Of a DNA stretch of 64,000 nucleotides, positions 4,201 to 49,267 are shown one piece after another. Origin of the DNA: Thiovibrio frasassiensis (GTDB lineage Bacteria; Desulfobacterota; Desulfobulbia; Desulfobulbales; Desulfurivibrionaceae); NCBI RefSeq assembly GCF_029607905.1, contig NZ_JAPHEH010000001.1, positions 2,571,530-2,635,529 of the forward strand, read 5' to 3'. Positions within the stretch are counted from its first letter, which is position 1; each line of letters begins with the position of its first letter. Below the pieces are notes generated by a model that saw nothing but the letters and a program-made list of their open reading frames with translations, was not told the DNA's origin and ran no database searches. The translations under genes and the position numbers were made by a program.

Positions 4201-7200
4201 TCATGAACAGAGTTGGTCAACCTCCTGCCATTTCTTGTCCAGCCGCTTGGCGGAAACCGGCAAGGCTGTGCCCAACTCCTGGGCAAAGAGCGAGACCTTG
4301 AACTCCTCGATCATCTCCTGGTATTCCCGCAGCCGCTCCCCCAGGGTACCGGAGAGATCCTGGCTGCTGGCCGCCCGGGCATAACGCTCTTCATGAATCG
4401 CCACCTGCTGCGCCTTGAGCGCATCCTTGCTTGGGGAGACCTGCGCCCGCTCAAGCCGGATCCGCAGGGCTTTCAGATACCGGCACATGGCCGCAAGGCG
4501 CGGCGGAAGCGTCTTCTGCAAAAAATCAGCAGGGACAATCTGCGTCACCTGGCGACGAAACTCGTCAAACCGCGCCGTATCCCGGGCTGTCCCTGTTCCC
4601 TTCCCGGAAAGCCGGGCAATGGCGTCGAGGGTAGTGCGCCGTTCCTGTAAGACCAGAAGAACAGCGGCAAAGATCTCCCGACAGAGCAAAATCAGCCCCT
4701 GGTGCCGCACTTCTTCGATCTTGGCACCAAATTGTTCGGCTGTGGGCGGCAGGCCGTCGCGGATGTCAAACACGGTAAAAAAAACAAAATCCCAGATATC
4801 TTGGTTGATCTGCTCATGGCTGGCCAATCCTTCGTACAAAGCCCAGTGAGAACGAGGGATGGCAAGCTCCTTGCGCAGGGATTTGATTTGGGTCGCAAAC
4901 CCATTGGCATACAAGCGGAACAGCGCCTCCCTGGTGTTCTGCCGCGCCTCGTTTTCCTTGAGAAAAAGACGTTGGCCCACGCCCTCCTGTGCATCGTAAC
5001 TGAGGCCGGGATAGACATAGCCCTGCAGGGAGCCATCCCCACCGGGCACAGGCAGGGAAGGAGGCGTTTGCCCGAACTGGGCCGGAGTAATATGTTTTTG
5101 TTCCCACTGCTCTTTCAGGGCCGCCAGATTCCCTGGACTAAAGACCTCCGTCTGCCCCATGGCCCCGCTTTTCAAGGCAGTGAAATCCCTGGTCACACTG
5201 ACAACATTGCCCTGCCCATCGAGCAGAGAGAAACGGAACCTGAGATGCGGCGGCAGATCGGCCAGAGGCCAATCCCGCGCGGCAATCCGCAGTTTGAAGG
5301 AATCAGCGATCACCTGTTCCATGGCTCGGTACAACGAACCACGGCCAAAGGGCAGATCTCGAACAATCTCCGCGGCGGTCTGGGGAATGGGCACCAGCTG
5401 TTTGCGCAGACTCTTGGGAAGCCCCTTGAGCAGAAACATCACCTTTTCGGCAAGCAAGCCAGGCACCAGCCATTCAAACAGCTCGGCCCGCAGATGTTGC
5501 GCCAGATTGAGGGGAATCCTTGCGGTCACTCCATCGTCCTCCTCCCCGGGGGCAAAGCGGTATGACAACTCCAGCCCACCCGCCTCCGTCTCCAGGGAAA
5601 GCGGAAACGGTTCCAGGGCCGCGGCCTCGGGCAGCTGCCTCCGGATATCATCGGCGGTCATGGTAAGAAGCGCTTGGGCGCCGGGATTTTTCAGCCACTG
5701 GTTCAGGCTGCGCTGGTCACGCACCTCCGGGCCGAGGCGTTCATCGTAGAAGCGAATAAGATCCTGATCGTCCACCATGATGCTGCGCTGGCGCAACCGG
5801 TCTTCCAGGTCCTGCAGCTGTGCCACCAGCGCCGTGTTTGCTGCGAGAAAGGGATATTCTCCCTTCAGCTCCCCCTCAATCAGGGCAGACTGGATAAAAA
5901 TCTGCCGACTCTCCTCGGGCTTGATCAAGCCATAATTGACCTTGCGCCTTTCCACAATAACCAACCCGAACAGGCTGATCTTGGCAAAGGCAACCACCTG
6001 GCCCCGCCCCTTTTCCCAATGGGGTTCGGAATAGGAAGAGCGGCAAAGCTCCCCGGCCAGGGGTTCGATCCACTCCGGCTTGATTTCGGCCACGGTCCGG
6101 GCATAGAGACGCGAGGTCTCAACCATCTCGGCGGCCATGAGCCAGTCGCCGGTCTTGCCGTACTGAGTGGAGCCGGGAAAGATCATAACCTCCCTGCCTC
6201 CCCCGGTCTGATAGAGATTCTTCTCCTTCTTCACCGCGATATTTCTGAGGTTGCCGCTCAAGATCGCCTGATGGATGGCGTCGGGTGCGGCGGGTTGCGT
6301 GTTCAGGGTAAAGCCAGGCTCCTCGGCCAGCACCTGGCAGATCTGCTCGTGGATATCGCGCCATTCCCGCATCCGCAGGAAGGAAAGATAATGGCTCACA
6401 CAGAATTTGCGCATTCGGGAGAGGCTCTGCAGTTTATCAAAGGTGGCATGGTACCCATCCCAGAGGGCGAGAAAAAAGAGGAAATCCGAGGGGGTCTTGA
6501 CGAACCGGGCATGGGCTGCGTCCGCCAATGCCTCCTTATCCAGCGGGCGAACCCGCGGATCCTGAATGCTCAAGCCCGCGGCGATAACCGTCACCTCCCG
6601 CAGAGCATTGTGCTCACGGGCCTCGATAATCATCCGGGAGATCCTCGGATCCAGAGGGAGCCGCGCCATGAGTCTGCCGTGCCCGGTGAGATGGCGCTTG
6701 CGGTCCAGGGCGCCAAGCTCGGTGAGCAGTCCATACCCATCCTGAATGGCCCGCCCCGTAGGCGGATCGAGAAAGGGGAAGCGCGCCGGATCGCCAAGCT
6801 TCAGACTGATCATCCTCAGGATAACCTCGGCCAGATTGGTGCGCAGAATCTCAGGGAGAGTATATTCGGGCCGGTTCAGGTAATCCTCCTCGGAATAGAG
6901 GCGGACGCAGACCCCAGGCCCCACCCTGCCGCAGCGGCCCTTACGCTGATCGCAGCTTGCCCGGGAAACCGAAACGATGGGGAGCTTGCTGGTTCGGGCC
7001 CGGACATTGTAGCTGGCCAAGCGGGCCAGACCGGTATCGACCACATAGCGGATACCCGGCACCGTGATGGAGGTTTCGGCCACATTGGTCGCCACCACAA
7101 TCTTCTGGCCTTTTACCGGCTGAAAGATCTTTTTCTGGTCTCCGGGCGAGAGCCTGCCGAACAGGGGCAGGACCACGGGGCCACCTTGGCCGTGCCCCCT

Positions 7201-7956
7201 GCCCAGCCGGGCTTGCAGCGCTTCCACGGTTTCCAGGATATCCCGCTCCGCCGGCATGAAGACCAGGATATCCCCCGACCCCTCCTGCTGGTGGAGAGCG
7301 CATACCGCCGCTACCGCCTGATCCACATAACTCTGCTCCCCTTCCTCCTCCTTGGCCGAATCCAGAGGCTGGTAGCGCACCTCAACCGGAAAGGTTCGTC
7401 CCGACACCTCGATCACCGGGGCGTTGCCGAAATGCTTGGCAAAGCGCGCCGTGTCGATGGTGGCCGAGGTAATCAGGAGGGTAAGATCCGGACGACGGAC
7501 AAGGAGCTGCTTGAGCAAGCCGAGGAGAAAATCTATATTGAGGCTCCGCTCGTGGGCCTCGTCGATGATGATCGTATCGTAGGCGGAAAGATTACGGTCA
7601 TGATGGGCCTCGGCCAGCAGGATGCCATCGGTCATGAACTTGAGCCGGGTATTGCGATTGGTCTGATCCTTAAAGCGAATCTTGTACCCGACCAGATCAC
7701 CATCACCACCGAGTTCTTCGCCAACCCGCTCGGCCACCGTGATGGCCGCGATCCGCCGGGGCTGGGTGCAGCCGATCCTTTTCCGCTTGCCGCGCCCTGC
7801 CTCCAGACACATCTTGGGCAACTGCGTGGTCTTGCCTGAGCCGGTGTCGCCGGCAACAACGACCACCTGACTGGTGCGGATAGCCTGGATGATTTCCTCC
7901 CGGTGCGCCACGATGGGCAACTCCGGTGGATAGTGCAAATTTCTTTCCTGTTCCAT
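4201..7956 (-). CDS. hrpA: ATP-dependent RNA helicase HrpA
   Basis: A DEAH-box RNA helicase of 1251 residues, close to the usual length of about 1300. Walker A (GDTGSGKTT) is near residue 37 and the DEAH box (IIIDEAHERS) near 131. SATID (motif III), then the RecA2 motifs VATNVAETSIT and QRKGRCGRVGPGVC, follow before the helicase-associated and OB regions. The long C-terminal half (from about 600) with EALFRLYANGFATQIKSLRKELA corresponds to the DUF3418 region of HrpA. In the family it acts on stalled ribosomes and mRNA. The antisense strand carries several long open frames, which are coding-strand shadows. The ribosome binding site is not obvious. Confidence 0.95.
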   Translation of the reverse strand: MEQERNLHYPPELPIVAHREEIIQAIRTSQVVVVAGDTGSGKTTQLPKMCLEAGRGKRKRIGCTQPRRIAAITVAERVGEELGGDGDLVGYKIRFKDQTNRNTRLKFMTDGILLAEAHHDRNLSAYDTIIIDEAHERSLNIDFLLGLLKQLLVRRPDLTLLITSATIDTARFAKHFGNAPVIEVSGRTFPVEVRYQPLDSAKEEEGEQSYVDQAVAAVCALHQQEGSGDILVFMPAERDILETVEALQARLGRGHGQGGPVVLPLFGRLSPGDQKKIFQPVKGQKIVVATNVAETSITVPGIRYVVDTGLARLASYNVRARTSKLPIVSVSRASCDQRKGRCGRVGPGVCVRLYSEEDYLNRPEYTLPEILRTNLAEVILRMISLKLGDPARFPFLDPPTGRAIQDGYGLLTELGALDRKRHLTGHGRLMARLPLDPRISRMIIEAREHNALREVTVIAAGLSIQDPRVRPLDKEALADAAHARFVKTPSDFLFFLALWDGYHATFDKLQSLSRMRKFCVSHYLSFLRMREWRDIHEQICQVLAEEPGFTLNTQPAAPDAIHQAILSGNLRNIAVKKEKNLYQTGGGREVMIFPGSTQYGKTGDWLMAAEMVETSRLYARTVAEIKPEWIEPLAGELCRSSYSEPHWEKGRGQVVAFAKISLFGLVIVERRKVNYGLIKPEESRQIFIQSALIEGELKGEYPFLAANTALVAQLQDLEDRLRQRSIMVDDQDLIRFYDERLGPEVRDQRSLNQWLKNPGAQALLTMTADDIRRQLPEAAALEPFPLSLETEAGGLELSYRFAPGEEDDGVTARIPLNLAQHLRAELFEWLVPGLLAEKVMFLLKGLPKSLRKQLVPIPQTAAEIVRDLPFGRGSLYRAMEQVIADSFKLRIAARDWPLADLPPHLRFRFSLLDGQGNVVSVTRDFTALKSGAMGQTEVFSPGNLAALKEQWEQKHITPAQFGQTPPSLPVPGGDGSLQGYVYPGLSYDAQEGVGQRLFLKENEARQNTREALFRLYANGFATQIKSLRKELAIPRSHWALYEGLASHEQINQDIWDFVFFTVFDIRDGLPPTAEQFGAKIEEVRHQGLILLCREIFAAVLLVLQERRTTLDAIARLSGKGTGTARDTARFDEFRRQVTQIVPADFLQKTLPPRLAAMCRYLKALRIRLERAQVSPSKDALKAQQVAIHEERYARAASSQDLSGTLGERLREYQEMIEEFKVSLFAQELGTALPVSAKRLDKKWQEVDQLCS

Positions 7957-35279: not shown

Positions 35280-36338
35280 TTACAAAGCCGGCGGCCCCAC
35301 CAAATCCCCCCTGCGCACCTCATGTCCGCTCCGTTTCGTCACCACAGCTGCGGCACTCTTTGCAGAAACCCGCAGGACCAGGATTTCCCCCGAGGTTCTC
35401 CCCTCAGCTTGGTCAGCCGCGGCCACCGACAAAAGGTGTCCGGGCGCAAGCCCCTGATCCGTGCCGACATTGAGATAGATAATGTCACCGGGTCCAGCAA
35501 GCTGACGCATCATATGAAACGCGACCACAGCGCCCTTAACGGAAGGCGGCCCGCCCTGGACCGGAATCTCGGAAACAGTAGGAACCTCTGGCACCTGGCC
35601 CAGAAGATCACCTCTTTTCACTTCGCCAAAAGCACGCCGGATAACCGCCTGTTGCCGGACCGGGTCCGAGGCGACAACCTCCAGTATGCCAATCTCGGCC
35701 AACAGATGCCCGGGACTTGCGCCAAAATAGGAGAGGGACTCGACCTTCCCCATATCCCGATATACGCCGAACTGCTGGCCAACCTGGGCGCCAGGGGCAG
35801 AGATCAGAATGGTCTCGCCGAGAGCCGCAACCTTCCAACCCCCCTCGGTTTGCAGCACCTTGCCCACCTTGGGAATATCGTTGGTGAGCATGCCTACCCC
35901 CTGCTCATAATAACGGGCCGGGACATTGCCAAGACCAGCTGCGGCCTGCGCCCCGTTTCCGGCAAGCTCTTTTTTTACCACAATGAGGGAGAGCGGCTCG
36001 GAGGTGGATGCTAAACCTGCCTTGGCAAGGGGAGAAGATCCCGAAGCCACCGGGCCAACAACCATTTCTGCGGGTGCTTCCGGGGCCGGAGACTTACCCC
36101 CCCCGGGAATAGTAACGATCTGCCCAGGCAAAATCAGGTTGGGGTTTGCAATCCCGGGATTCAGCTTCCAAATTTTCGGCCAGAGCAATGGATTATTGAG
36201 ATAGCCGCCGCTCAAATCCCAGAGGGTGTCTCCTTTTTGTACCGCATGGGTGGTTGTATTTTCCGCCCAAATTTCCCCGGCGCCAAAAACTCCGCAGACA
36301 GAGGCGAGAATAAACGTCGATGCAATAATTTTTTTCAT
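35280..36338 (-). CDS. Exported LysM-domain protein
   Basis: A 352-residue periplasmic protein: signal peptide (about residues 1-25), then a LysM domain (about 27-75) with THAVQKGDTLWDLSGGYL and NPNLILPGQIVTIP, which binds peptidoglycan. A Pro/Ala linker precedes a C-terminal region of about 220 residues with no family I know, although the pattern GDIIYLNVGTDQGLAPGHLL is typical of LysM proteins in deltaproteobacteria. I start at the ATG behind AAGGAG. It is probably monocistronic, with copA downstream on the same strand across the gap. Confidence 0.85.
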   Translation of the reverse strand: MKKIIASTFILASVCGVFGAGEIWAENTTTHAVQKGDTLWDLSGGYLNNPLLWPKIWKLNPGIANPNLILPGQIVTIPGGGKSPAPEAPAEMVVGPVASGSSPLAKAGLASTSEPLSLIVVKKELAGNGAQAAAGLGNVPARYYEQGVGMLTNDIPKVGKVLQTEGGWKVAALGETILISAPGAQVGQQFGVYRDMGKVESLSYFGASPGHLLAEIGILEVVASDPVRQQAVIRRAFGEVKRGDLLGQVPEVPTVSEIPVQGGPPSVKGAVVAFHMMRQLAGPGDIIYLNVGTDQGLAPGHLLSVAAADQAEGRTSGEILVLRVSAKSAAAVVTKRSGHEVRRGDLVGPPAL

Positions 36339-36479
36339 GGAATACTCCTTTCGAACCGGACACACATTAAAAACGGAAAAAGCTGCTGCACAGGCACAGG
36401 CCAGTACTATCATCTACGCAAGGTTTCTGAAAATTGTCAAGGCGATGCTGCGCTGCCCTTTATTTTAAAACGATGGGCG

Positions 36480-39842: not shown

Positions 39843-41171
39843 ATGGCACATTCCCGCATCCATTCCGTGTTACTGATCCTTGCCCTGCACCTCAGCCTTG
39901 CTCTGCCCGTTGCTGCGGACGAACCAGCAAGCTCCTTTCCCTTGGGCAAACAATATTTCGAGCAGGGAAAGTTCGCCGAGGCATACACCGAGCTATACAA
40001 GGCATTTCTCCAGGATCCGGCGAATCTCGACCTTAATTTCTATCTTGGCAGGGCCGCCTTTGAAACAGGCCGCCCCGAAGAAGCGGTCATGGCCTACGAA
40101 CGCATTCTCATCGCCAACCCGGATGCCCAACAGGCAAAACTGGAACTGGCCCGAGCCCACTTGCAACTGGGCTCGCGGGAGGTGGCCAAGCAATATTTCA
40201 AGGAACTGCTCGCCACCAATCCGCCGGAACAGGTGTGGAAGAACATCGAATCCTTCCTTGCATATATCGAGGCCTCGGAACAGAAACATTTTGTCAACGG
40301 CACCTTCACCCTCGGGCATGCCTGGGATGACAACGCCCGTTCCGCCCCGGTCAGCGACCGTATTTCCGTAGGGCTGTTCGAATTTCAGCTCACCGGTCCG
40401 ACCGCCACCCCCCAGAGCGACCAGATCAACACCGCCACATTGATCCTCAATCATATCTACAAAAACGAAGCATATCCCTTCATGTGGAAAACCTCCGCAA
40501 CCTCTTATAATTCGCTCTACCAGAGCCTGTATGACCTTGCCATAAACTATCTTGGCCTGGCCACCGGCCCGGTTTTCCAAAAAAGCAACTACATCTGGGA
40601 CGTACAGGCGATCGGATCGTATATCGATGTGGAACATGACCGCTACCAGAGCGCCGTTGGCGCAGCCTCATCCCTGACCGCGATTTTCGCCAAAAATTTC
40701 ATGGGCACCTTCGCGGTCAAGGCCGAGGAGAAAAACAATTACGTGGACCCTGACCGGGATGCGCTCAACCTCATGATTTCCGCAGGACCGGTTCTCCTGG
40801 TCGGCCCCAATCGGTTGAGTCTCCTGTTCAGCTTGGAAAATGAAAACGCTGAAAACGAGATCAACAGCTACGACCGCTTTGGCTGGAAACTGCGCTACGA
40901 CCGGAGCCTGCCCGCCGATTTTGCCCTCTTTGCCGGGATTGGCTACACCTCCACCGATTATGACGCCGAGCTTCCACTCTTTTCGGCTTTCCGCCGCGAC
41001 GAGGTGCAGGAGATAACAGCGGGAATCTCCCGCCTGCTCTGGCAAGATACGACCAGGCATCAGGCACTGATCATGCAGCTGGCCCACACCTATACCAACT
41101 CGGACTCCAATATCGACCTCTACACCTACAGAAAGAACGTAACCGGACTCAACCTCACCGTGAGTTTTTGA
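39843..41171 (+). CDS. Slam-like TPR/beta-barrel translocator, copy 1
   Basis: A 442-residue exported protein. Signal peptide (about 1-24, ending VAA), then tetratricopeptide repeats (about 33-140) such as LGKQYFEQGKFAEAYTELYKA, then a beta-barrel domain (about 150-442) beginning FVNGTFTLGHAWDDNARSAP and ending YTYRKNVTGLNLTVSF with a terminal Phe. N-terminal TPRs plus C-terminal barrel are the layout of Slam/DUF560 translocators of the type XI secretion system, which move lipoproteins and small barrel proteins across the outer membrane. The family call is from architecture and motifs, not a search. It overlaps or abuts the next gene and is paralogous to the copy at 42563. Confidence 0.7.
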   Translation: MAHSRIHSVLLILALHLSLALPVAADEPASSFPLGKQYFEQGKFAEAYTELYKAFLQDPANLDLNFYLGRAAFETGRPEEAVMAYERILIANPDAQQAKLELARAHLQLGSREVAKQYFKELLATNPPEQVWKNIESFLAYIEASEQKHFVNGTFTLGHAWDDNARSAPVSDRISVGLFEFQLTGPTATPQSDQINTATLILNHIYKNEAYPFMWKTSATSYNSLYQSLYDLAINYLGLATGPVFQKSNYIWDVQAIGSYIDVEHDRYQSAVGAASSLTAIFAKNFMGTFAVKAEEKNNYVDPDRDALNLMISAGPVLLVGPNRLSLLFSLENENAENEINSYDRFGWKLRYDRSLPADFALFAGIGYTSTDYDAELPLFSAFRRDEVQEITAGISRLLWQDTTRHQALIMQLAHTYTNSDSNIDLYTYRKNVTGLNLTVSF

Positions 41172-41185
41172 ATAGCGAGGACACC

Positions 41186-42361
41186 ATGAAAATAAATACC
41201 TCCCTCCCGATCATCATTGCGTTCCTCATTCTGTCCTGCTTGACCGGAGCCGTCTCTTCCGCCTATGCCGAATCACTGGCTGTGGCCACGGTGGTGGCTC
41301 TGCGCGGGACAGTGGTTGCTCAAAACAAAAGCGGCACAGAGCGACCCCTGAGCATGAAGAGCCAGATCTTCCAGGAAGACCTGCTGAAAACCGACAAAAA
41401 CGGCCAGTTGCAGATCTTGTTCTCCGACAAGAGCATCATCACCCTTGGCCGGGAAAGCGAAATGAAGATTGCCGAATATCACTGGCAGCCCGGGCAAAAA
41501 GAGAGCGTTCTCAAAACCCAGGTCAAGGAAGGCACTTTCCGGGTAATGGGCGGGGCGATGGCCAAGGATGCCCCCCAGAATTTCAAAACCGAAACCCCCA
41601 CCGCCACCATAGGCATCCGGGGCTCCATGTATGCCTTCAGGTCAACGGTGCAACAACTTTCCGTGGTCTTTCAAGGCGGCAGAGGCATTGACATATTCAA
41701 CGACCTGGGTCGGGTCGCCATCACCACCCCCGGCTTCGGCACCCATGTCATGCTGAACACTCCGCCAGCGCCTCCTTCCAGATTCACGGAACAGGAGCTC
41801 AAAAGACTCAACCAGCAGCTCAACGGCAACGGCGACTCTTCCGGCAATGGAGGAGGGGGAAATCTCAACTCGTTCACCGCGCCGCTTACCGTGCCGCCAC
41901 CGCCGCAACTCCCCCCGACCAATGAGCTCCCTGGTGCCCCGGCCACCCCCTTCGCTCTTTCCACCAACGCCGTTATCAATACAAGTTTTGTTGGTACCTA
42001 CACAGGTGGAATAGACGCAAATTACACGGACAATAACGTCGTTACGCCCTTGACTGGTACTTTTAACCTGACGGCAAATTTCGCCTCACAATCCATCACC
42101 GGCGACATTAATCTCAACCATATCGATCACACTGCCTTTGATAACTATGGCATTAGCGGCGTGTCAATTACTTCCACTCCTACCTCGAATTCGTTCACTG
42201 GTTCAGTCGTATCAAGTAGTGAATCAATCATCGGCTCGTTCACGGGTGCATTCTATGGACCCGCAGCAGAGGTGGTAAAAGGCGGCTTCTCAGGAAGTGA
42301 AAATGGCGTGACAGTCAACGGCACCTTTGGCGGCAACCGGACAACAACGCTCATACAATAA
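41186..42361 (+). CDS. Exported FecR-domain protein with TbpB-like C-terminal barrel, copy 1
   Basis: A 391-residue exported protein. Signal peptide (about 1-29, cut near AYA) without a good lipobox, so it should be soluble. A FecR domain (about 35-180) has GTVVAQNKSG, IFQEDLLKTDKNG, FRVMGG and TPTATIGIRGSMYAF. A Gly/Pro/Ser-rich linker (about 205-258) follows. The C-terminal 130 residues repeat short beta strands and contain GAFYGPAAEVVKGGF, the hallmark of the transferrin-binding-protein-B barrel that marks type XI substrates. GCGAGG lies 5 nt before the ATG. It follows the Slam-like gene at 14 bp and is followed by a terminator. Confidence 0.75.
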   Translation: MKINTSLPIIIAFLILSCLTGAVSSAYAESLAVATVVALRGTVVAQNKSGTERPLSMKSQIFQEDLLKTDKNGQLQILFSDKSIITLGRESEMKIAEYHWQPGQKESVLKTQVKEGTFRVMGGAMAKDAPQNFKTETPTATIGIRGSMYAFRSTVQQLSVVFQGGRGIDIFNDLGRVAITTPGFGTHVMLNTPPAPPSRFTEQELKRLNQQLNGNGDSSGNGGGGNLNSFTAPLTVPPPPQLPPTNELPGAPATPFALSTNAVINTSFVGTYTGGIDANYTDNNVVTPLTGTFNLTANFASQSITGDINLNHIDHTAFDNYGISGVSITSTPTSNSFTGSVVSSSESIIGSFTGAFYGPAAEVVKGGFSGSENGVTVNGTFGGNRTTTLIQ

Positions 42362-42411
42362 ACGACCTTCCGCCTCACAGCCCAAGCCACTTTTAACCAT
42401 TTTCGCCCTTT

Positions 42412-42449
42412 AAAAGCGTCCAGCCTAGGTTTCCAGGCTGGACGCTTTT
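42412..42449 (+). terminator. Strong hairpin terminator between the two secretion pairs
   Basis: Fifteen paired bases (AAAAGCGTCCAGCCT with AGGCTGGACGCTTTT) and an 8-nt loop, with A- and T-rich flanks that would work on either strand. It separates the first pair from the second. Confidence 0.9.
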
Positions 42450-42502
42450 GCTTTCTGTTTCTTTTTACCAAAAAAAAGTTATGCCGATAGGGTGTTATCC
42501 GG

Positions 42503-42508
42503 TATAAT
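42503..42508 (+). promoter_or_regulatory. Candidate -10 box for the second secretion pair
   Basis: A perfect TATAAT 55 bp before the start, but the -35 at the right distance is poor. The surrounding 35 bp resemble the region before copy 1, which fits duplication of the promoter with the gene. Confidence 0.35.
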
Positions 42509-42562
42509 TTTTTATCGTCAAATGTCCATTTGCCCTACAGCCGACTGCTTCAGGAATCTGTT

Positions 42563-43888
42563 ATGACCCAATTTAATTTTATTGCCGTGATACTCATTGC
42601 CCTCCATCTTTTTTTGGGCCAAGCCGTTGCCGCAGAAGGGACATCCACCCCATTCTCTCTTGGAAAACAGTATGTTGATCAGGGCCGTTTTGAGGAGGCG
42701 TACAGCGAACTGCACAAAGCATTTCGCTTGGACCCGGGCAATCCGGAACTCAATTTCCTTCTCGGTCGAGCCGCCTTTGAAACCGGACGATACGAAGAAG
42801 CGGTCATGGCCTACGAACGGGTACTCATCGCCGACCCCGAGGCATCCCGGGTCAAGCTCGAACTTGCCCGCACCCACCTCAAGCTCGGCACCCGGGAACT
42901 GGCCAAGCAGTACTTCAAGGAGGTGCTTGCCACCAACCCGCCGCAACAGGTGTGGAAAAATATCGAAAAATTCCTCGCCTCCATTGAGGCCTCAGAGCGG
43001 AAACATTTTGTTAACGGCACCTTCACCTTCGGCCACGCCTGGGACTCCAACGCCCGTTCCGCCCCGGTGAGCAGCCAGATCTCTGCAGGTCTTTTCGAAT
43101 TTCAACTCACCGGCGCAAGCGCCACCCCTGAGAGCGACCAGATCAATAACACCACCCTGGTTCTCAATCATGTGTACAAAAACGAAGAGTACCCCTTCTT
43201 GTGGAAAACCGCGGCAACCTCATACAATGCCCTGTACCAAAGCCTGCATGATCTCGACGTAAATTATCTTGGCCTGGCCACCGGCCCGGTTTTTCAGAAG
43301 GACAACTACATCTGGGATATCCAAGCACTCGGCTCTGGTGTCGATGTGGAACACGACCGCTACCAGAGCGCCTATGGCGCATCCTCATCCCTGACCGTCT
43401 TTTTCTCGGAGAAAATGATGGGCGCCTTTGCCGCCAAGGCTGAGGAAAAAAACAATTATGTGGACCCGGAGCGGGATGCGGTCAACCTCTTGATTTCCGC
43501 AGGGCCGATCCTGCTGATCGGCGATAATCGCTTGAGCCTTTTATTCAGCAAGGAGAGAGAAAGCGCAGAGAACAAGGTCAACAGCTATGACCGTTTCGGC
43601 TGGAAACTCCGCTACGATCATCCTCTGCCCAACGATTTTGCCGCCTTTGCCGGTTTAGGTTACACCTCCACCGATTACGATACCCGCCACCCCTTCTTCT
43701 TTACCTACCGCCGCGACGATGTTCAGGAACTCAACGGTGGGGTCTCCCGTCTGCTCTGGCAGGATAAGGCAAGCAGCCAGGCGCTCATCATGCAGTTGGG
43801 ACACACCTATACCTACTCGGAGTCCAATATCGGTCTTTACACCTACAGAAAGAATGTCACCGAGCTCAGCCTCACTGTGAGCTTTTGA
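42563..43888 (+). CDS. Slam-like TPR/beta-barrel translocator, copy 2
   Basis: A 441-residue paralog of the gene at 39843 with the same plan: signal peptide (ending VAA), TPRs (LGKQYVDQGRFEEAYSELHKA), and a C-terminal barrel from FVNGTFTFGHAWDSNARSAP to YTYRKNVTELSLTVSF. By eye well over half of the residues are identical across the full length, and much of the difference is conservative. I start at the ATG behind CAGGAATCTG rather than an upstream in-frame one. It is 15 bp before the second FecR protein gene, so the copy 1 arrangement is repeated. Confidence 0.7.
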   Translation: MTQFNFIAVILIALHLFLGQAVAAEGTSTPFSLGKQYVDQGRFEEAYSELHKAFRLDPGNPELNFLLGRAAFETGRYEEAVMAYERVLIADPEASRVKLELARTHLKLGTRELAKQYFKEVLATNPPQQVWKNIEKFLASIEASERKHFVNGTFTFGHAWDSNARSAPVSSQISAGLFEFQLTGASATPESDQINNTTLVLNHVYKNEEYPFLWKTAATSYNALYQSLHDLDVNYLGLATGPVFQKDNYIWDIQALGSGVDVEHDRYQSAYGASSSLTVFFSEKMMGAFAAKAEEKNNYVDPERDAVNLLISAGPILLIGDNRLSLLFSKERESAENKVNSYDRFGWKLRYDHPLPNDFAAFAGLGYTSTDYDTRHPFFFTYRRDDVQELNGGVSRLLWQDKASSQALIMQLGHTYTYSESNIGLYTYRKNVTELSLTVSF

Positions 43889-43903
43889 GCAACGAGGACC
43901 GTC

Positions 43904-46018
43904 ATGCAAAAAAGTGCTGCTCTCCCACAAATTCTCCTGCTCAGCCTGCTCTGCCTGGTTGCGCCACTCTCCTCCGTCGTCAACGCAACCCCCCAAACGG
44001 TGGCCACGGTGGTGGCTCTGCGTGGCACGGTGGTTGCCCAGGACAAAAGCGGAGCAGACCGCAACCTGAGCATCAAGAGCGATATTTTTCAGGAAGATGT
44101 TCTGAAAACCGGCAAAAACGCCAAGCTGCAGATCATGTTCACCGACAACAGCATCATCAGCCTCGGCCGCAACAGTGAGATGAAAATCGCCGAATACCGT
44201 TACCAGCCCGGGCAGAAAGACGGCGCTCTCAAAACCCAGGTCAAGGAAGGCACCTTCCGGGTGATGGGCGGGGCGCTGGCCAAGGAAGCACCCCAGAATT
44301 TCAAGACCGTTACCCCCACCGCCACCATCGGCATCCGCGGTTCCATGTATGCATTCAAGTCAACCCGGGAGTCGCTTTCCGTTCTCTTCCAGGGCGGCAA
44401 GGGCATCGAGATCTTCAACGACCAGGGCAAGGTCACCATCACCACCCCCGGTTTCGGCACCAAGGTAGTACTCAACACCGCCCCGGCAAAACCGGCCAAA
44501 TTCACGGAACAGGAACTCAACGATTTAAACAAGCAGCTCAACGGCAACGGCACCAATGGCGACAATGGCGATCAGGCTGCGGCCAGCGAGAAAGGCGGCG
44601 AAGAGCAACAGCCAGCAGCGGACGCCCCACCCGCCGAGGGTGAACCGGAAGCAACGCCTGCTCCAGAACCTGCTCCGGAACCCGCACCGGCACCGGAGCC
44701 TGCCCCGCTGCCACCCCCTCCGGTTCCTCAACCCGTTCCGGTGCCGGACCCCCGCGATCTTGAATGGACGTTCCCTACGCCTCCGCCGCCCCCGAGCGAT
44801 GGCATCTTCACGTTCAGTGGCGGTCTGGGAGGAACCTCGACCAAGAGTGACGGCTCCACAGAAACCTTTTCCAACAGTCTGCAGATGGGGGTGAACTGGT
44901 ACAACCACAAAATCTTCGGGATTGCCTATGACGATACGGTTGAGAAAAACAAGCCGGTCTTTTTCTTTGGCACGGTGAACGGCACCACCATTTCCGACCT
45001 CAAGATCTTCGGTTCCGATGAGGGTGGCTCTTACCCTTCCAGCGATGCCGCATTTATCAGCGGCAGCGGTAGCGGCCTCTTCTCGGGCACGGCCTATGAC
45101 TTCTTCAGCTTCAACGCCACGGGCAACTCCTATCTTACCAAGGGGACGCCCACCCAACCCGTGCAGGATTCCTGGATTGTGGCCGGCGGCGGCCAGCAGG
45201 TGGCTGGAGCCATGGTTCCAACGGCTCCCAAGGGCACGGAAATATGGAGTGGCTTTGTGGTGGCCTCAAGTGAGGACATGAACAACCGCCCCGTTGGCCG
45301 CCATCTCATATACAATACGAATCCGAACTCCTTTACCATGAACATCAACAAGGACGCCGGCACCATCCTCGGCACCCTGACCACCGACGTGAACGTCGGC
45401 GGCGGCTATAATATCTCCGGCATGACCGTGGGTAGCTCCTACGGCTCAGTGTACCTCAATGACCAGTACCTGGCCGCCCTGCTGGGTGGTTCCAACCTTG
45501 CGGTAAAAGAGTACGGCAATTATATGGTCGTCGAAGACCCAGCAAGACAGCTCTCCACCCATTTCACCTGGGGGTACTGGGAGGTCGCCTACGAAGAATC
45601 CTCCCTTCAACGCCAAATCAGGGTGCCGGAATCCATGTGGCTGGCGGGAAAACCCTCGACGAATTCGGTTATCAATGGGTCCTTTTCCGGCACGTACAGT
45701 GGTAAGGCCTACGGCACGATGATCAACATAGCCGATACCACCCAAATTTCTCAAATAAGTGGCTCCATGAATCTCACGGCCAACTTCACCTCCACCCCCA
45801 GCATCACCGGCAGCCTGGCCTTTACCAACGGCACCACCCTTTCTATCAGCGGCGGCGCCTATTCGGCTGACGCTTCAACGAACCGCTTCAACGCCATTCT
45901 CACGGGGGGCACCATCCAAGGCGCCTTTTACGGCACCAATGCCGAGGCCGTGGGCGGCAACTTTTACAGCTCGACCGGCGGCAATCAGTACCTCGGTATT
46001 TTCGGCGGCAACAAGTAA
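43904..46018 (+). CDS. Exported FecR-domain protein with TbpB-like C-terminal barrel, copy 2
   Basis: A 704-residue longer version of the first cargo. Signal peptide (about 1-28, cut near VNA), no lipobox. The FecR domain (about 33-180) is closely similar to copy 1 (IFQEDVLKTGKNA, FRVMGG, TIGIRGSMYAF). A Glu/Pro/Ala linker (about 215-290) is followed by a beta-rich middle region (about 296-585) absent from copy 1, ending FTWGYWEVAYEE and WLAGKPSTNSVING. The last 115 residues are a TbpB-like barrel with GAFYGTNAEAVGGNF. It sits between the second Slam-like gene and the cyclase gene, 21 bp before the latter. Confidence 0.75.
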   Translation: MQKSAALPQILLLSLLCLVAPLSSVVNATPQTVATVVALRGTVVAQDKSGADRNLSIKSDIFQEDVLKTGKNAKLQIMFTDNSIISLGRNSEMKIAEYRYQPGQKDGALKTQVKEGTFRVMGGALAKEAPQNFKTVTPTATIGIRGSMYAFKSTRESLSVLFQGGKGIEIFNDQGKVTITTPGFGTKVVLNTAPAKPAKFTEQELNDLNKQLNGNGTNGDNGDQAAASEKGGEEQQPAADAPPAEGEPEATPAPEPAPEPAPAPEPAPLPPPPVPQPVPVPDPRDLEWTFPTPPPPPSDGIFTFSGGLGGTSTKSDGSTETFSNSLQMGVNWYNHKIFGIAYDDTVEKNKPVFFFGTVNGTTISDLKIFGSDEGGSYPSSDAAFISGSGSGLFSGTAYDFFSFNATGNSYLTKGTPTQPVQDSWIVAGGGQQVAGAMVPTAPKGTEIWSGFVVASSEDMNNRPVGRHLIYNTNPNSFTMNINKDAGTILGTLTTDVNVGGGYNISGMTVGSSYGSVYLNDQYLAALLGGSNLAVKEYGNYMVVEDPARQLSTHFTWGYWEVAYEESSLQRQIRVPESMWLAGKPSTNSVINGSFSGTYSGKAYGTMINIADTTQISQISGSMNLTANFTSTPSITGSLAFTNGTTLSISGGAYSADASTNRFNAILTGGTIQGAFYGTNAEAVGGNFYSSTGGNQYLGIFGGNK
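44655..44760 (+). repeat. Pro/Glu/Ala codon repeat in the linker of cargo 2
   Basis: Repeats of PAPEPAPEPAPAPEPAPLP, encoded by repeated CCNGCN/GAACCN units, form a stiff extended linker between the FecR and middle domains. Confidence 0.8.
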
Positions 46019-46039: not shown

Positions 46040-48286
46040 ATGACGATCCCCGCCCGGCTCAAAGCATTTTTCACCCTCTCCCCCTTCAAGGTCGGCTGCC
46101 TGGTAACCCTGGCAGCCGTCCTGCTTTTCGCTTCCTTTGGCCAGCAAAAACCCGAGATCCTGCAAACCCTCGACAACCGGTTGACCGACACCATGTTCCG
46201 TTACCGGGGCACGGTTACCCCTTCCCAACCCATCGTCATCGTCGATATCGACGAAAAGAGCCTGCGGTCCATCGGCCAATGGCCATGGCCTCGACAGATC
46301 GTAGCGAAGATGGTGCACAACCTCGGCGCGGGCGGGGCAAAGGTCGTTGGCTTGGATATCGTTTTTGCCGAATCAGACCGCACCTCACCCAAAAACTTTA
46401 TTGAGGAAATGCAGCAACTGCTCCCGACCCAACTCCCCCAGGAAACCCTGAACGAGTTGAAGGCCAGCGAGGCGCTGGACCACGATCTCGCTCTGGGCAA
46501 GGCGTTGGCTGCAACCCCCTCGGTGTTGGGCTACGTCTTTCAAACCCAGAACGACGGGTTGAAAAACCAGGCAGATATCCCCTTTCCCTCCGCAACCACC
46601 CGCCTCGTGCCCAGCACCACCCGGTATGAGGACATCTCCCTGCGCCGGGCCTACCGGGCCATTACCAACGTTATCTCCGTGGCCCAAGGCGAGAGCGAGG
46701 GATTTTTCAATGTGTTCCCTGATTCTGCGGGTACGGTGCGCAAGGTGCCGCTCTTCATGATGCTGGATGGCGTCCCCTACCCCTCCCTTGCCCTGGAAGT
46801 GGCGCGGATCGGCCTGGGGGAACAGGAGGCAACCATCCATATCTCACGGCAGGATAAAACAAGAGGCAGAGATATCCTCGGGATCGAGCTGGGCGCATCC
46901 TTTATCCCCACCGATGAACAGGGGCAGATCACCATCAATTTCAGGGGCCCGGGCCAGACCTACCCCTATCTTTCCGCGGCAGAGATCCTGGCAGGCACCA
47001 ACCTGGAACGGGTACGGGGCAAATATGTGCTCGTCGGCACCTCAGCCGCCGGACTGCTTGACCTCAGGGCCACGCCCTTTTCCAACATCTATCCGGGGGT
47101 TGAAGTGCACGCCACCATCATCGACAACATCCTGAGCCACGACCCGTTTGTCTACGACATCTTCACCGAGATCGGCATCACCTATGCCCTGCTCCTCATC
47201 GGCGGCCTGGGCTTAAGCGCGCTCCTCGCCTATGCCACCCCCTTGGCCGGCGGCCTCGGCGGGTTGTTGCTCTTCTTGGCCGCCCTGACCGGCAACTATT
47301 TTTTCTTTTTCAGTCAGAACCAGCTCCTCGGCCTCTCCTATCCGCTCCTGACCGTCCTGGCCATTTTCCTGATGGTCACCCTGTTCAACTACTTTTTCGA
47401 AGGCCAGAAAAAACGGTTCATCAGCTCGGCCTTTGGCCACTACGTCTCCCCGCAGATCGTGCACCAGCTTCTGGAACATCCGGAAAAACTTTCCCTGCAA
47501 GGAGAGGAAAAAAACCTGACCGTGCTGTTTAGCGATATCCGGGGCTTCACCTCCATCTCCGAAAAAATGACCTCCGAAGAGCTTGGCCACTTCATGAATG
47601 AGTATCTCACGGCCATGAGCCATCTCATTTTTGAGCACAAGGGAACCGTTGACAAATTCATCGGCGACGCTATCATGGCCATTTGGGGCGCACCCATTGA
47701 AGATAGTGACCACGCCGCCAACTGTGTGCGGGCGGCCTTCCGGATGATGGCCCAACTTGACACCCTGCAAACCGACTGGCAGAAACGGGGGCTCCCCGAT
47801 GTGGCTATCCGCATCGGGATCAACACCGGGGTCATGAGCGTGGGCAACTTCGGCAGCGACCAGCGCTTTGATTATACGGTCATGGGCGACAACGTCAATC
47901 TTGCCTCCCGGCTGGAAGGGGCGAACAAAACCTACGGCACCAGCATCGCCATCTCGGAATACACCAAGACTGCGCTGGGAGAAGGGTTTTACTGCCGGCT
48001 CCTCGATCTGGTCCGGGTCAAGGGTAAAGAAATCCCGGTGCGGATCTACGAACCCCTCTGCGAAGGCGAGCCGGAACCGGAGCTGAAAAAGGAAACAGAG
48101 TTATTTGCCGCGGCGCTGCACCATTACGCAAACCGCGAGTTTCAGGAGGCGGCAGAAATCATCCTCGCCCTCAACAACGCGCACCCCACACCACTCTATG
48201 CGCTTTACCTTGACCGGCTCAGCCACTTCGCGGCCAACCCGCCACCGGAAGATTGGGACGGCGCCTTCACCTTTACCACCAAATAA
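46040..48286 (+). CDS. CHASE2-domain adenylate cyclase
   Basis: A 748-residue class III adenylyl cyclase. The first membrane helix (about 16-32) precedes an extracytoplasmic CHASE2 domain (about 45-350) with PIVIVDIDEKSLRSIGQWPWPR. Three to four helices follow (about 360-430), then the cytosolic cyclase domain (about 475-680). Metal-binding Asp residues are in LFSDIRGFTS (near 492) and FIGDAIMAIWGAP. The adenine-selecting Lys lies in VDKFIGD, the Asp in FDYTVMGDNVNLASRLEG. All catalytic residues appear intact. It senses a periplasmic signal, unknown here. Translation is probably coupled to the upstream cargo gene, as no strong ribosome binding site is visible. Confidence 0.9.
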   Translation: MTIPARLKAFFTLSPFKVGCLVTLAAVLLFASFGQQKPEILQTLDNRLTDTMFRYRGTVTPSQPIVIVDIDEKSLRSIGQWPWPRQIVAKMVHNLGAGGAKVVGLDIVFAESDRTSPKNFIEEMQQLLPTQLPQETLNELKASEALDHDLALGKALAATPSVLGYVFQTQNDGLKNQADIPFPSATTRLVPSTTRYEDISLRRAYRAITNVISVAQGESEGFFNVFPDSAGTVRKVPLFMMLDGVPYPSLALEVARIGLGEQEATIHISRQDKTRGRDILGIELGASFIPTDEQGQITINFRGPGQTYPYLSAAEILAGTNLERVRGKYVLVGTSAAGLLDLRATPFSNIYPGVEVHATIIDNILSHDPFVYDIFTEIGITYALLLIGGLGLSALLAYATPLAGGLGGLLLFLAALTGNYFFFFSQNQLLGLSYPLLTVLAIFLMVTLFNYFFEGQKKRFISSAFGHYVSPQIVHQLLEHPEKLSLQGEEKNLTVLFSDIRGFTSISEKMTSEELGHFMNEYLTAMSHLIFEHKGTVDKFIGDAIMAIWGAPIEDSDHAANCVRAAFRMMAQLDTLQTDWQKRGLPDVAIRIGINTGVMSVGNFGSDQRFDYTVMGDNVNLASRLEGANKTYGTSIAISEYTKTALGEGFYCRLLDLVRVKGKEIPVRIYEPLCEGEPEPELKKETELFAAALHHYANREFQEAAEIILALNNAHPTPLYALYLDRLSHFAANPPPEDWDGAFTFTTK

Positions 48287-48325: not shown

Positions 48326-49267
48326 ATGCCGGATTCCTCACTCCACGACCTCATCATCATCGGCGGTGGCCCAGGCGGCTATACCGCAGGCATCTATGCG
48401 CAACGGGCCGCCCTGAAAACAGTCCTCATTGAAAAAGGTATCCCCGGCGGCCAGTTGAACAATACCGACGAGGTGGAGAACTGGCCCGGCACCGAAAAGA
48501 TCAGCGGCGCGGACTTGGCCATCCAATTTTCCCAGCATGCCGCAGCCTATGATCTTGCGGTTTTGAACCGTGAGGTTGTTGGGATTGAACCGGGACGTAA
48601 CCACCATACGATCCTCTTGGATAACGGAGAAAAACTCACAAGCCACGCAGTTATTCTTGCCACCGGCGGCAGCCCGAAAAAACTGGGAATTCCGGGGGAA
48701 GACCAAAATTATGGCCGAGGGGTTTCTTACTGCGCCGTGTGCGACGGCTTCTTTTTTCGAAACAAAACCGTGGTGGTGGTGGGCGGGGGCGACAGCGCCC
48801 TGGAGGAATCCCTCTATCTGGCCAAGCTCGCCAAACGGGTGTACATCGCCCATCGGCGGGATGCCTTCCGGGCCGGCATGATCCTGCAAAAGAGGGTGCT
48901 GCATGAAGAACGGATCACCGTGCTCTGGAACACGGTGCTGACCGAGATCCAGGCGGATGCACAGGGGGTGAATGGGGTAATCACCCGGAATACCATGGAT
49001 GGCACGACCTCCGCCCTGGCCACCGATGGGGTCTTCGTCTTTATCGGCTTTGAGCCGAACAATGGACTGGTTCCGGCAGGCACCAAGATGAACGCCAACG
49101 GCTATGTGATTGCGGATGAGAAATGCGAAACCAACACCCCGGGCATCTTCGTAGTGGGCGATCTCAAGGAAAAATACGCCAAACAGATCGTCACAGCCGC
49201 GGCGGACGGCTGCACCGCAGCCCTGGCCGCGGCCCATTACGTGGAGAATAAGAAGAGCGGGGCCTGA
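48326..49267 (+). CDS. trxB: Thioredoxin reductase
   Basis: An NADPH-dependent flavoenzyme of 313 residues that reduces thioredoxin in the cytosol. FAD-binding GGGPGGYTAGIY is at residues 10-21, the redox pair CAVC near 135 (SYCAVCDGFF), the NADPH site VVGGGDSALEE near 150 and the second FAD motif TNTPGIFVVGDL near 270. AAGGAG lies 8 nt before the ATG. It is 39 bp after the cyclase gene, so it may be its last operon partner. It converges with the rhomboid gene. Confidence 0.94.
   Translation: MPDSSLHDLIIIGGGPGGYTAGIYAQRAALKTVLIEKGIPGGQLNNTDEVENWPGTEKISGADLAIQFSQHAAAYDLAVLNREVVGIEPGRNHHTILLDNGEKLTSHAVILATGGSPKKLGIPGEDQNYGRGVSYCAVCDGFFFRNKTVVVVGGGDSALEESLYLAKLAKRVYIAHRRDAFRAGMILQKRVLHEERITVLWNTVLTEIQADAQGVNGVITRNTMDGTTSALATDGVFVFIGFEPNNGLVPAGTKMNANGYVIADEKCETNTPGIFVVGDLKEKYAKQIVTAAADGCTAALAAAHYVENKKSGA

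Follow-up and report, generated by a model that had tools for sequence, protein, structure and literature searches.

Type XI secretion relies on outer-membrane (OM) channels of the Slam type (DUF560, PF04575), which act as translocons for TbpB-type partners where this has been tested (PMC9090332; PMC12282271). The available text of PMC8406197 and PMC12282271 sets out about ten type XI cargo architectures, stresses iron and heme uptake for cluster 1, and includes soluble TbpBBD cargo with signal-peptidase-I (SPI) leaders as a described class (PMC8406197); none of these architectures is FecR-TbpB, and FecR as a word is absent from both papers, supplementary tables aside. Here we analyze a locus at 39843-46018 of a 64,000-nucleotide stretch of Thiovibrio frasassiensis DNA (contig NZ_JAPHEH010000001.1; the window), which shares with type XI systems a SlipAM match, N-terminal TPRs, a modeled 14-stranded barrel and an adjacent partner with a TbpB-type end, but in which the partner starts with FecR and the neighboring gene encodes a CHASE2 adenylate cyclase. 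This link to cAMP signaling is the most informative feature of the locus.

The closest system tied to cAMP is that of Sinorhizobium meliloti, in which the OM receptor NsrA and the cyclase CyaK are both required for the response to signal 1, a plant signal (PMC7529298). CyaK is named as an inner-membrane, CHASE2-domain cyclase that works with NsrA (PMC13001267). As far as the consulted sections of PMC7529298 go, the NsrA barrel exposes nothing but its loops to the exterior; on that topology, FecR would lie in the periplasm. On pSymB, we found an ORF of 1219 aa just upstream of the CyaK-type cyclase, with a FecR match (57.2 bits) and TPRs, and with no SlipAM or TbpB_B_D match. Annotation is missing at this ORF in the pSymB record; further records of S. 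meliloti give the name cyaK to the same best cyclase match. Judged by its position and length, the ORF is probably NsrA. Both systems thus have FecR, TPRs and a large C-terminal region (reported as a barrel in NsrA) directly upstream of a CHASE2 cyclase. NsrA, experimentally an OM receptor that feeds cAMP, is however one chain where the window has two.

The same gene types as in the window also occur in Campylobacterota clusters of FecR, TPR, phosphodiesterase and CHASE2 adenylate cyclase genes (PMC9239204, which cites the NsrA paper), but no type XI channel or TbpB-like part is named in the available text, and the window cyclase is flanked by the second FecR gene and an oxidoreductase rather than by a phosphodiesterase. 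We note that a Sulfurospirillum locus (L126) encodes a FecR protein with TbpB_B_D (32.5 bits, over cut-off), a TPR protein and a CHASE2 cyclase. In addition, a LysM-FecR gene has been reported beside a CHASE2 histidine kinase (PMC5192318, from the part available). Our literature searches returned no paper on DUF560 with FecR, nor on FecR with a transferrin-binding protein and Slam. Each part is known, but in the literature searched we came across no cAMP circuit that unites a type XI channel with a TbpB-like substrate; a preliminary description of this DNA had likewise not known FecR-TbpBBD as a described substrate class.

Two channel-partner pairs and a cyclase gene

The locus consists of two consecutive gene pairs on the + strand, each with a TPR-plus-barrel protein followed by a signal-peptide FecR protein in the ORF list: A1 (39843-41171, 442 aa) with C1 (41168-42361, 397 aa; start listed at a TTG, with an ATG 6 codons downstream), and A2 (42530-43888, 452 aa) with C2 (43904-46018, 704 aa). 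With A1 and A2 72% identical and C1 and C2 52% identical, the two pairs are a true tandem repeat; trees bearing on the age of the duplication were poorly supported, and we make no claim about it. The CHASE2 adenylate cyclase gene (46040-48286, +) begins after a gap of 21 bp from C2, and its product matches CHASE2 (216.8 bits; cut-off 26.3) at 46115-47212 and Guanylate_cyc (99.2 bits; cut-off 21.9) at 47507-48031. A terminator-like hairpin (42411-42450, +; 16-pair stem and T-rich tail) lies between C1 and A2, suggesting that A1-C1 and A2-C2-cyclase may be separate units, in a region where such sites are not commoner than in shuffles (13 found; mean 13.2). In the source genome (2.84 Mb, 3 contigs), profile searches found SlipAM, FecR and TbpB_B_D matches confined to these loci, one further CHASE2 protein, and a single Crp-type regulator over cut-off, which is compatible with use of cAMP and no proof of it.

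Both TPR-barrel proteins scored over the curated Pfam cut-off for SlipAM/DUF560 (A1 33.0, A2 31.2; cut-off 22 bits), with matches at 40566-41156 and 43286-43876, behind TPRs that were also over cut-off (at ~39942-40223 in A1, with TPR_19 at 57.9 bits, and at ~42659-42943 in A2). TPR_Slam remained under its cut-off in both proteins (22.3 and 25.2 vs 35.2 bits). Among 47 aligned barrels, selected like the aligned FecR-TbpB proteins below by profiles built in this analysis, 43 matched SlipAM (E <= 0.001). An AlphaFold2 model of A2, which stands here for the barrels (47-sequence alignment; mean pLDDT 92.2), has helical repeats followed by long strands, of which a reading of the element list by eye gives 14. 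Its closest folds were CymA (Z 22.1) and OmpG (Z 21.4), both 14-stranded barrels, and its N-terminus resembled TPR arrays (Z 17.7); no solved Slam structure was among the fold matches listed for the A2 barrel, an absence that is no test.

The partner proteins combine a FecR domain with a TbpB-type end. C1 matches FecR (34.7 bits; cut-off 24) at 41381-41671 and TbpB_B_D (34.8 bits; cut-off 26) at 42032-42340, and C2 matches FecR (36.6 bits) at 44096-44383, while its TbpB_B_D score was 25.9 bits by hmmscan, 0.1 under the cut-off, and 31.6 bits in the genome search. The NCBIfam slam_lipo model gave only 39.5 and 47.1 bits for the two proteins (cut-off 80). In the C2 model (32-sequence alignment; mean pLDDT 82.8), FecR is followed by a linker with pLDDT mostly <50 (most of residues 215-289; disordered and Pro-rich at 44540-44800) and two beta lobes, the first TbpB-like (~44804-45277) and the C-terminal one with an eight-stranded barrel (45647-46015; last eight strands at residues 595-703). 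Foldseek ranked TbpB first for C2 (E 4.5e-11). Full-chain TM-scores against intact TbpB were low (0.17-0.27), which we put down to separate domains moving relative to each other, so we used per-domain Z values. By these, C2 FecR is closest to anti-sigma periplasmic domains (4m0n, Z 15.7; PupR 6ovk, Z 15.5, rmsd 2.7, 138 aligned), the middle of C2 to 3hoe_A ('Surface Lipoprotein'; Z 14.0, 128 aligned, range 23-433), a TbpB N-lobe, and the modeled C-terminal barrel to the fHbp C barrel 4ayn_B (Z 15.2, rmsd 2.4, 111 aligned). Thus, C2 is modeled as FecR, a linker and a TbpB-like bilobed body. C1 is shorter, missing the middle part or first TbpB-like lobe, with a linker of 55 aa (18% Pro). A linker between FecR and the lobes is present in all 32 aligned FecR-TbpB proteins (39-380 aligned residues, median 105), with a median Pro content of 12% compared to 4.2% elsewhere, and in 9 of the 32 it exceeds 200 residues and carries folded inserts. 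Pfam FecR was matched by 32/32 of these proteins and TbpB_B_D by 30/32. FecR also resembles the LapA retention module, but at 34-35 bits in NCBIfam (cut-off 50) this is no more than a lead. A BFVD search at E <= 0.001 gave two hits, each named 'FecR protein' and each on a phage-labelled contig.

The leaders of these proteins look SPI-like by eye, and no conserved lipobox was seen among 27 N-termini compared by eye rather than with a signal-peptide predictor. C2 has LLC at the Cys and no lipobox. C1 has LILSC, which a permissive lipobox pattern would accept, although in most relatives the position preceding this Cys is hydrophobic (by eye). In C2, FecR stands directly behind the signal peptide, with no cytoplasmic sigma-binding part.

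These results bear out much of the preliminary description, which had recognized the two tandem pairs, the Slam/DUF560 nature of the barrels (in line with the SlipAM scores and the TPR-plus-14-strand model) and the TbpBBD-type eight-stranded end of the partners. Of the two results that it said would refute it, barrels scoring to another family and a different C-terminal fold, neither was obtained. Its lack of a lipobox holds for C2 and is ambiguous for C1. Its layout of FecR, linker and C-terminal strands is present, yet incomplete in that C2 is modeled as bilobed, and its exclusion of an iron-binding lobe was too strong given the TbpB-like first lobe of the C2 model. Likewise, it was right to see type XI parts with a FecR partner, but missed the cyclase just downstream and with it the link to cAMP.

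Recurrence of the three genes in related loci and genomes

We examined related loci beginning with 58 relatives and 36 fetched stretches, in which barrel, FecR-TbpB and CHASE2 cyclase genes repeatedly occurred side by side, followed by 65 named loci from a barrel alignment that were scored with our own profiles. Most of the named relatives come from metagenome assemblies and carry the labels Desulfurivibrio, Desulfobulbaceae or 'Deltaproteobacteria'; the loci are mutually related and a few share a genome, so that locus counts are not independent. Moreover, two loci were omitted from this barrel alignment, one with SlipAM and TbpBBD without FecR (L035) and one with a long TPR barrel (L051), so that the FecR association among loci found with it is partly built in. 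The phylum sample and plasmid regions described below do not rest on this alignment.

A full-length barrel was present in 46 of the 65 named loci and was accompanied by a FecR ORF in 41 of these 46; the remaining five either stop at a contig end (L091, L101) or are L103, L105 and L115. The last three barrels (L103 8920-10296, L105 4107-5510, L115 8878-10239) lie in Lentisphaerae/Planctomycetota metagenome-assembled genomes with no FecR partner detected, and transfer or mis-binning is possible. The barrel and the TbpB end go together: of the 41 loci with barrel and FecR, 8 are cut, 2 contain N and 31 are complete, and a TbpB-type barrel end was found in 29 of these 31 complete FecR ORFs (exceptions L075 and L131), compared to 0 of 5 FecR loci with TPR-only partners (L124, L125, L127, L129, L130), which also showed no CHASE2 in the stretch examined. 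This last class stood at 2/7 before two loci with a TbpB end were dropped: L126, because its barrel continues in a second ORF, and L122 (= L152), a decayed or misassembled locus in which TPR, FecR and TbpB form a single ORF beside a cut CHASE2. A CHASE2 protein was encoded in 28 of the 46 full-barrel loci, or 28/35 once 11 loci cut by a contig end are excluded; two of the 28 (L103, L105) have no FecR ORF. The domains, the folds and this recurrent three-gene linkage are results of the computation itself.

We also searched 198 genomes of the phylum, the source genome included. TbpB_B_D was over cut-off in eight genomes, and in all eight, more often than chance would give, a barrel-profile match lay within ~2.5 kb, two of these matches covering the TPR part only (G162, where a contig end cuts the barrel, and G236, a decayed locus); a ninth TbpB_B_D match, under cut-off (G089), had no barrel-profile neighbor. 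The TbpB_B_D protein carried FecR in 5/8 (G000, G019, G028, G239, G236), and CHASE2 was matched in the same stretch in 6/8 (the same five and G081, in which it is encoded on the other strand, accompanied by FecR genes of its own); CHASE2 was not seen near TbpB_B_D in G162 (a short contig) or G200.

The linkage of FecR to CHASE2 exists also without the barrel. In the 198 genomes, 37 of the 150 FecR matches listed, from 31 genomes, lay <=5 kb from a listed CHASE2, compared to ~0.7 expected, and 20 of these 31 genomes had no barrel-profile match. On alphaproteobacterial plasmids, where we opened 5 regions, chosen as annotated, of 40 hits listed, the FecR gene adjoins the CHASE2 cyclase gene in 4/5, and in the remaining region (L157) a single small TPR gene separates the two. 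The Paracoccus aminophilus genes run in the order TPR protein, FecR protein, CHASE2 cyclase. Here the linker of the FecR protein is a GPTGPTDPT-type repeat, and its end is TbpB_B_D-like, although at 22.1 bits it falls short of the cut-off (26).

A candidate receptor across the outer membrane

We favor, with a probability of about 0.5, the reading that the locus encodes an OM-to-cytoplasm signaling cassette on a type XI (Slam-like) channel, in which the FecR-TbpB protein is an OM-spanning receptor rather than a released cargo. The TPR-barrel protein would take up the TbpB-like end of its partner and display the TbpB-like lobes on the cell surface, while FecR at the partner N-terminus would stay in the periplasm next to the TPRs and the low-complexity linker would run through the barrel, as RcsF does in OM barrels (PMC4942254). 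This analogy is limited to the idea of a sensor that spans the OM through a barrel; RcsF is lipid-anchored, with its N-terminus outside and its C-terminus in the periplasm, the opposite of what we propose. In vitro, Slam1 translocates only unfolded TbpB (PMC9090332), and translocation could therefore halt at a folded FecR. An external ligand or surface state might then be relayed through FecR to the adenylate cyclase in the inner membrane, by way of its periplasmic CHASE2 domain, and change cAMP.

We infer this translocation, topology, ligand sensing, FecR-CHASE2 contact and cAMP output from several lines of evidence. The linkage of FecR and CHASE2 with or without a barrel, together with the NsrA-type single chain, points to a periplasmic FecR that connects to the cyclase, while display of the remainder of the partner on the outside is suggested by the TbpB fold and the SlipAM barrel; the linker found between FecR and the lobes in every aligned protein would connect the two. 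The likeness of modeled FecR to periplasmic anti-sigma domains and the joint occurrence of barrel and TbpB end also speak for this reading. That FecR, the barrel partner and the cyclase serve one pathway is more secure than the exact topology, and we regard it as probable. If the proposal is true, the role of type XI channels extends from the delivery of nutrient scavengers to the building of receptors, an outside signal is carried through both membranes, and there is a concrete physical candidate for the route by which CHASE2 adenylate cyclases are reached from the cell surface. Type XI secretion would also be tied to the Campylobacterota clusters (PMC9239204) and to the S. meliloti NsrA-CyaK work on cAMP, neither of which mentions type XI in the text available.

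Several observations weigh against this proposal. An SPI-like leader without an anchor is equally expected of a released cargo. CHASE2 is missing from 7 of the 35 testable full-barrel loci (L098, L099, L100, L109, L115, L116, L131), five of which (L098, L099, L100, L109, L116) do encode FecR-TbpB, although L099 and L116 offer only ~2.5 kb downstream. In the phylum sample, our profile found no FecR in 3/8 TbpB_B_D proteins (G081, G200, G162), which shows that such pairs do not always include FecR. The only FecR-CHASE2 'fusion' seen, a 1230-aa ORF in L047 (= L079), is an assembly-gap artefact, as a run of N separates its parts. The available part of PMC5498481 reports that results in S. meliloti did not support a role in signal perception for the cAMP-regulated FecR protein SMc02177. 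Finally, the cassette is drawn from computation, and in it the docking of barrel and cargo and the contact of FecR with CHASE2 are conjectural.

It is possible, if on balance unlikely, that the locus performs plain type XI secretion, with the whole FecR-TbpB protein exported and released or loosely held, FecR as an effector domain and the cyclase merely co-regulated. The SlipAM and TbpB_B_D matches, the SPI-like leader (seen by eye) with its precedent in soluble TbpBBD cargo (PMC8406197), the loci without CHASE2 and the TbpB_B_D proteins without FecR all speak for this, but it leaves unexplained the recurrent CHASE2 cyclase, the barrel-free FecR-CHASE2 linkage and the S. meliloti FecR-TPR chain beside cyaK. 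The preliminary description had also expected the cargo to be released or held non-covalently; with a CHASE2 adenylate cyclase encoded next door, the linkage is matched better by a FecR that stays in the periplasm, attached to the channel, than by release. We are more doubtful of a reading modeled on the proposal for NsrA, in which the TPR-barrel serves as the receptor, the TbpB-like part is not exported but acts from inside as a plug or gate of the barrel, and FecR relays to CHASE2. Such an arrangement would suit the NsrA-like single chain without a TbpB match, as well as L138 and L147, in which barrel, FecR and CHASE2 occur together and FecR has a Pro-rich tail only (by eye); yet the C2 body has the two-lobed TbpB fold, a surface-receptor architecture, and the tested Slam-type channels with TbpB-type partners are translocons. 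We consider it very improbable that FecR belongs to sigma-factor signaling of the FecI/FecR type, despite the presence of the domain, since no sigma-binding part precedes it, the source genome has no FecR match beyond the two cargos, and none of the 17 window proteins scanned with Pfam showed up as a sigma factor.

A broader version of the OM-spanning receptor proposal is decidedly speculative: FecR-TPR-CHASE2 might be a general export-coupled sensor, in which a periplasmic FecR on an exporter-attached TPR reports the state of the channel or surface to cAMP, and in the type XI version the receptor itself would be an arrested substrate, half outside and half inside. The exporter types found beside FecR are the SlipAM barrel in the window, a TolC-like protein with its own TPR (L129, without CHASE2) and NHLP exporters (L157 and L158, with CHASE2).

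Neighboring genes and variant loci

Downstream of the cyclase, after 39 bp on the same strand, lies a gene for a thioredoxin-reductase-like FAD/NAD oxidoreductase (48326-49267, +; Pyr_redox_2 185.4 bits), which is perhaps on the same transcript. A relative of this gene is found 3' of the cyclase in four loci of one genus (L037, L038, L040, L044), and not in the other fetched loci. Elsewhere in the window, a LysM-domain protein gene (35283-36413, -) adjoins a copper-ATPase-like gene; unlike the LysM-FecR proteins that pair with CHASE2 kinases in other bacteria (PMC5192318), its product has no FecR match.

The copy number of the genes varies among relatives. Three loci (L036 6748-11612, L071 2655-7345, L092 10395-15259) have one barrel, two FecR-TbpB genes and one cyclase, unlike the window; a possible second barrel remnant between the two cargos of L036 and L092 was just a 23-aa match (E ~0.15), which we do not claim. 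The FecR end also varies where barrel, FecR and CHASE2 occur together, being beta-rich by eye in L136 and L137 and, as noted, a Pro-rich tail in L138 and L147. L150 encodes a CHASE2 cyclase, a barrel with a SlipAM match of 43.8 bits and, beside them, a FecR-like protein (6117-7832; found with our own profile, with no Pfam match at 0.01). This protein has a very long Asp-Thr repeat, which may be a variable repeat or an assembly limit.

FecR genes also adjoin other export systems. On Ensifer and Shinella plasmids, FecR and CHASE2 cyclase genes adjoin NHLP-type exporter genes (L157 427-7067, L158 2278-12034). FecR-TPR pairs also accompany type I-like adhesin loci: in L125 (2251-9530), L127 (8953-17984) and L129 (7258-13979), a TPR protein is paired with a short FecR protein that has a similar tail of helical appearance, and a giant adhesin-like protein beginning with a MALEPRIMFDxA-type motif comes next, and in L129, a stretch with no CHASE2, the TPR is fused to a TolC-like protein (named by eye).

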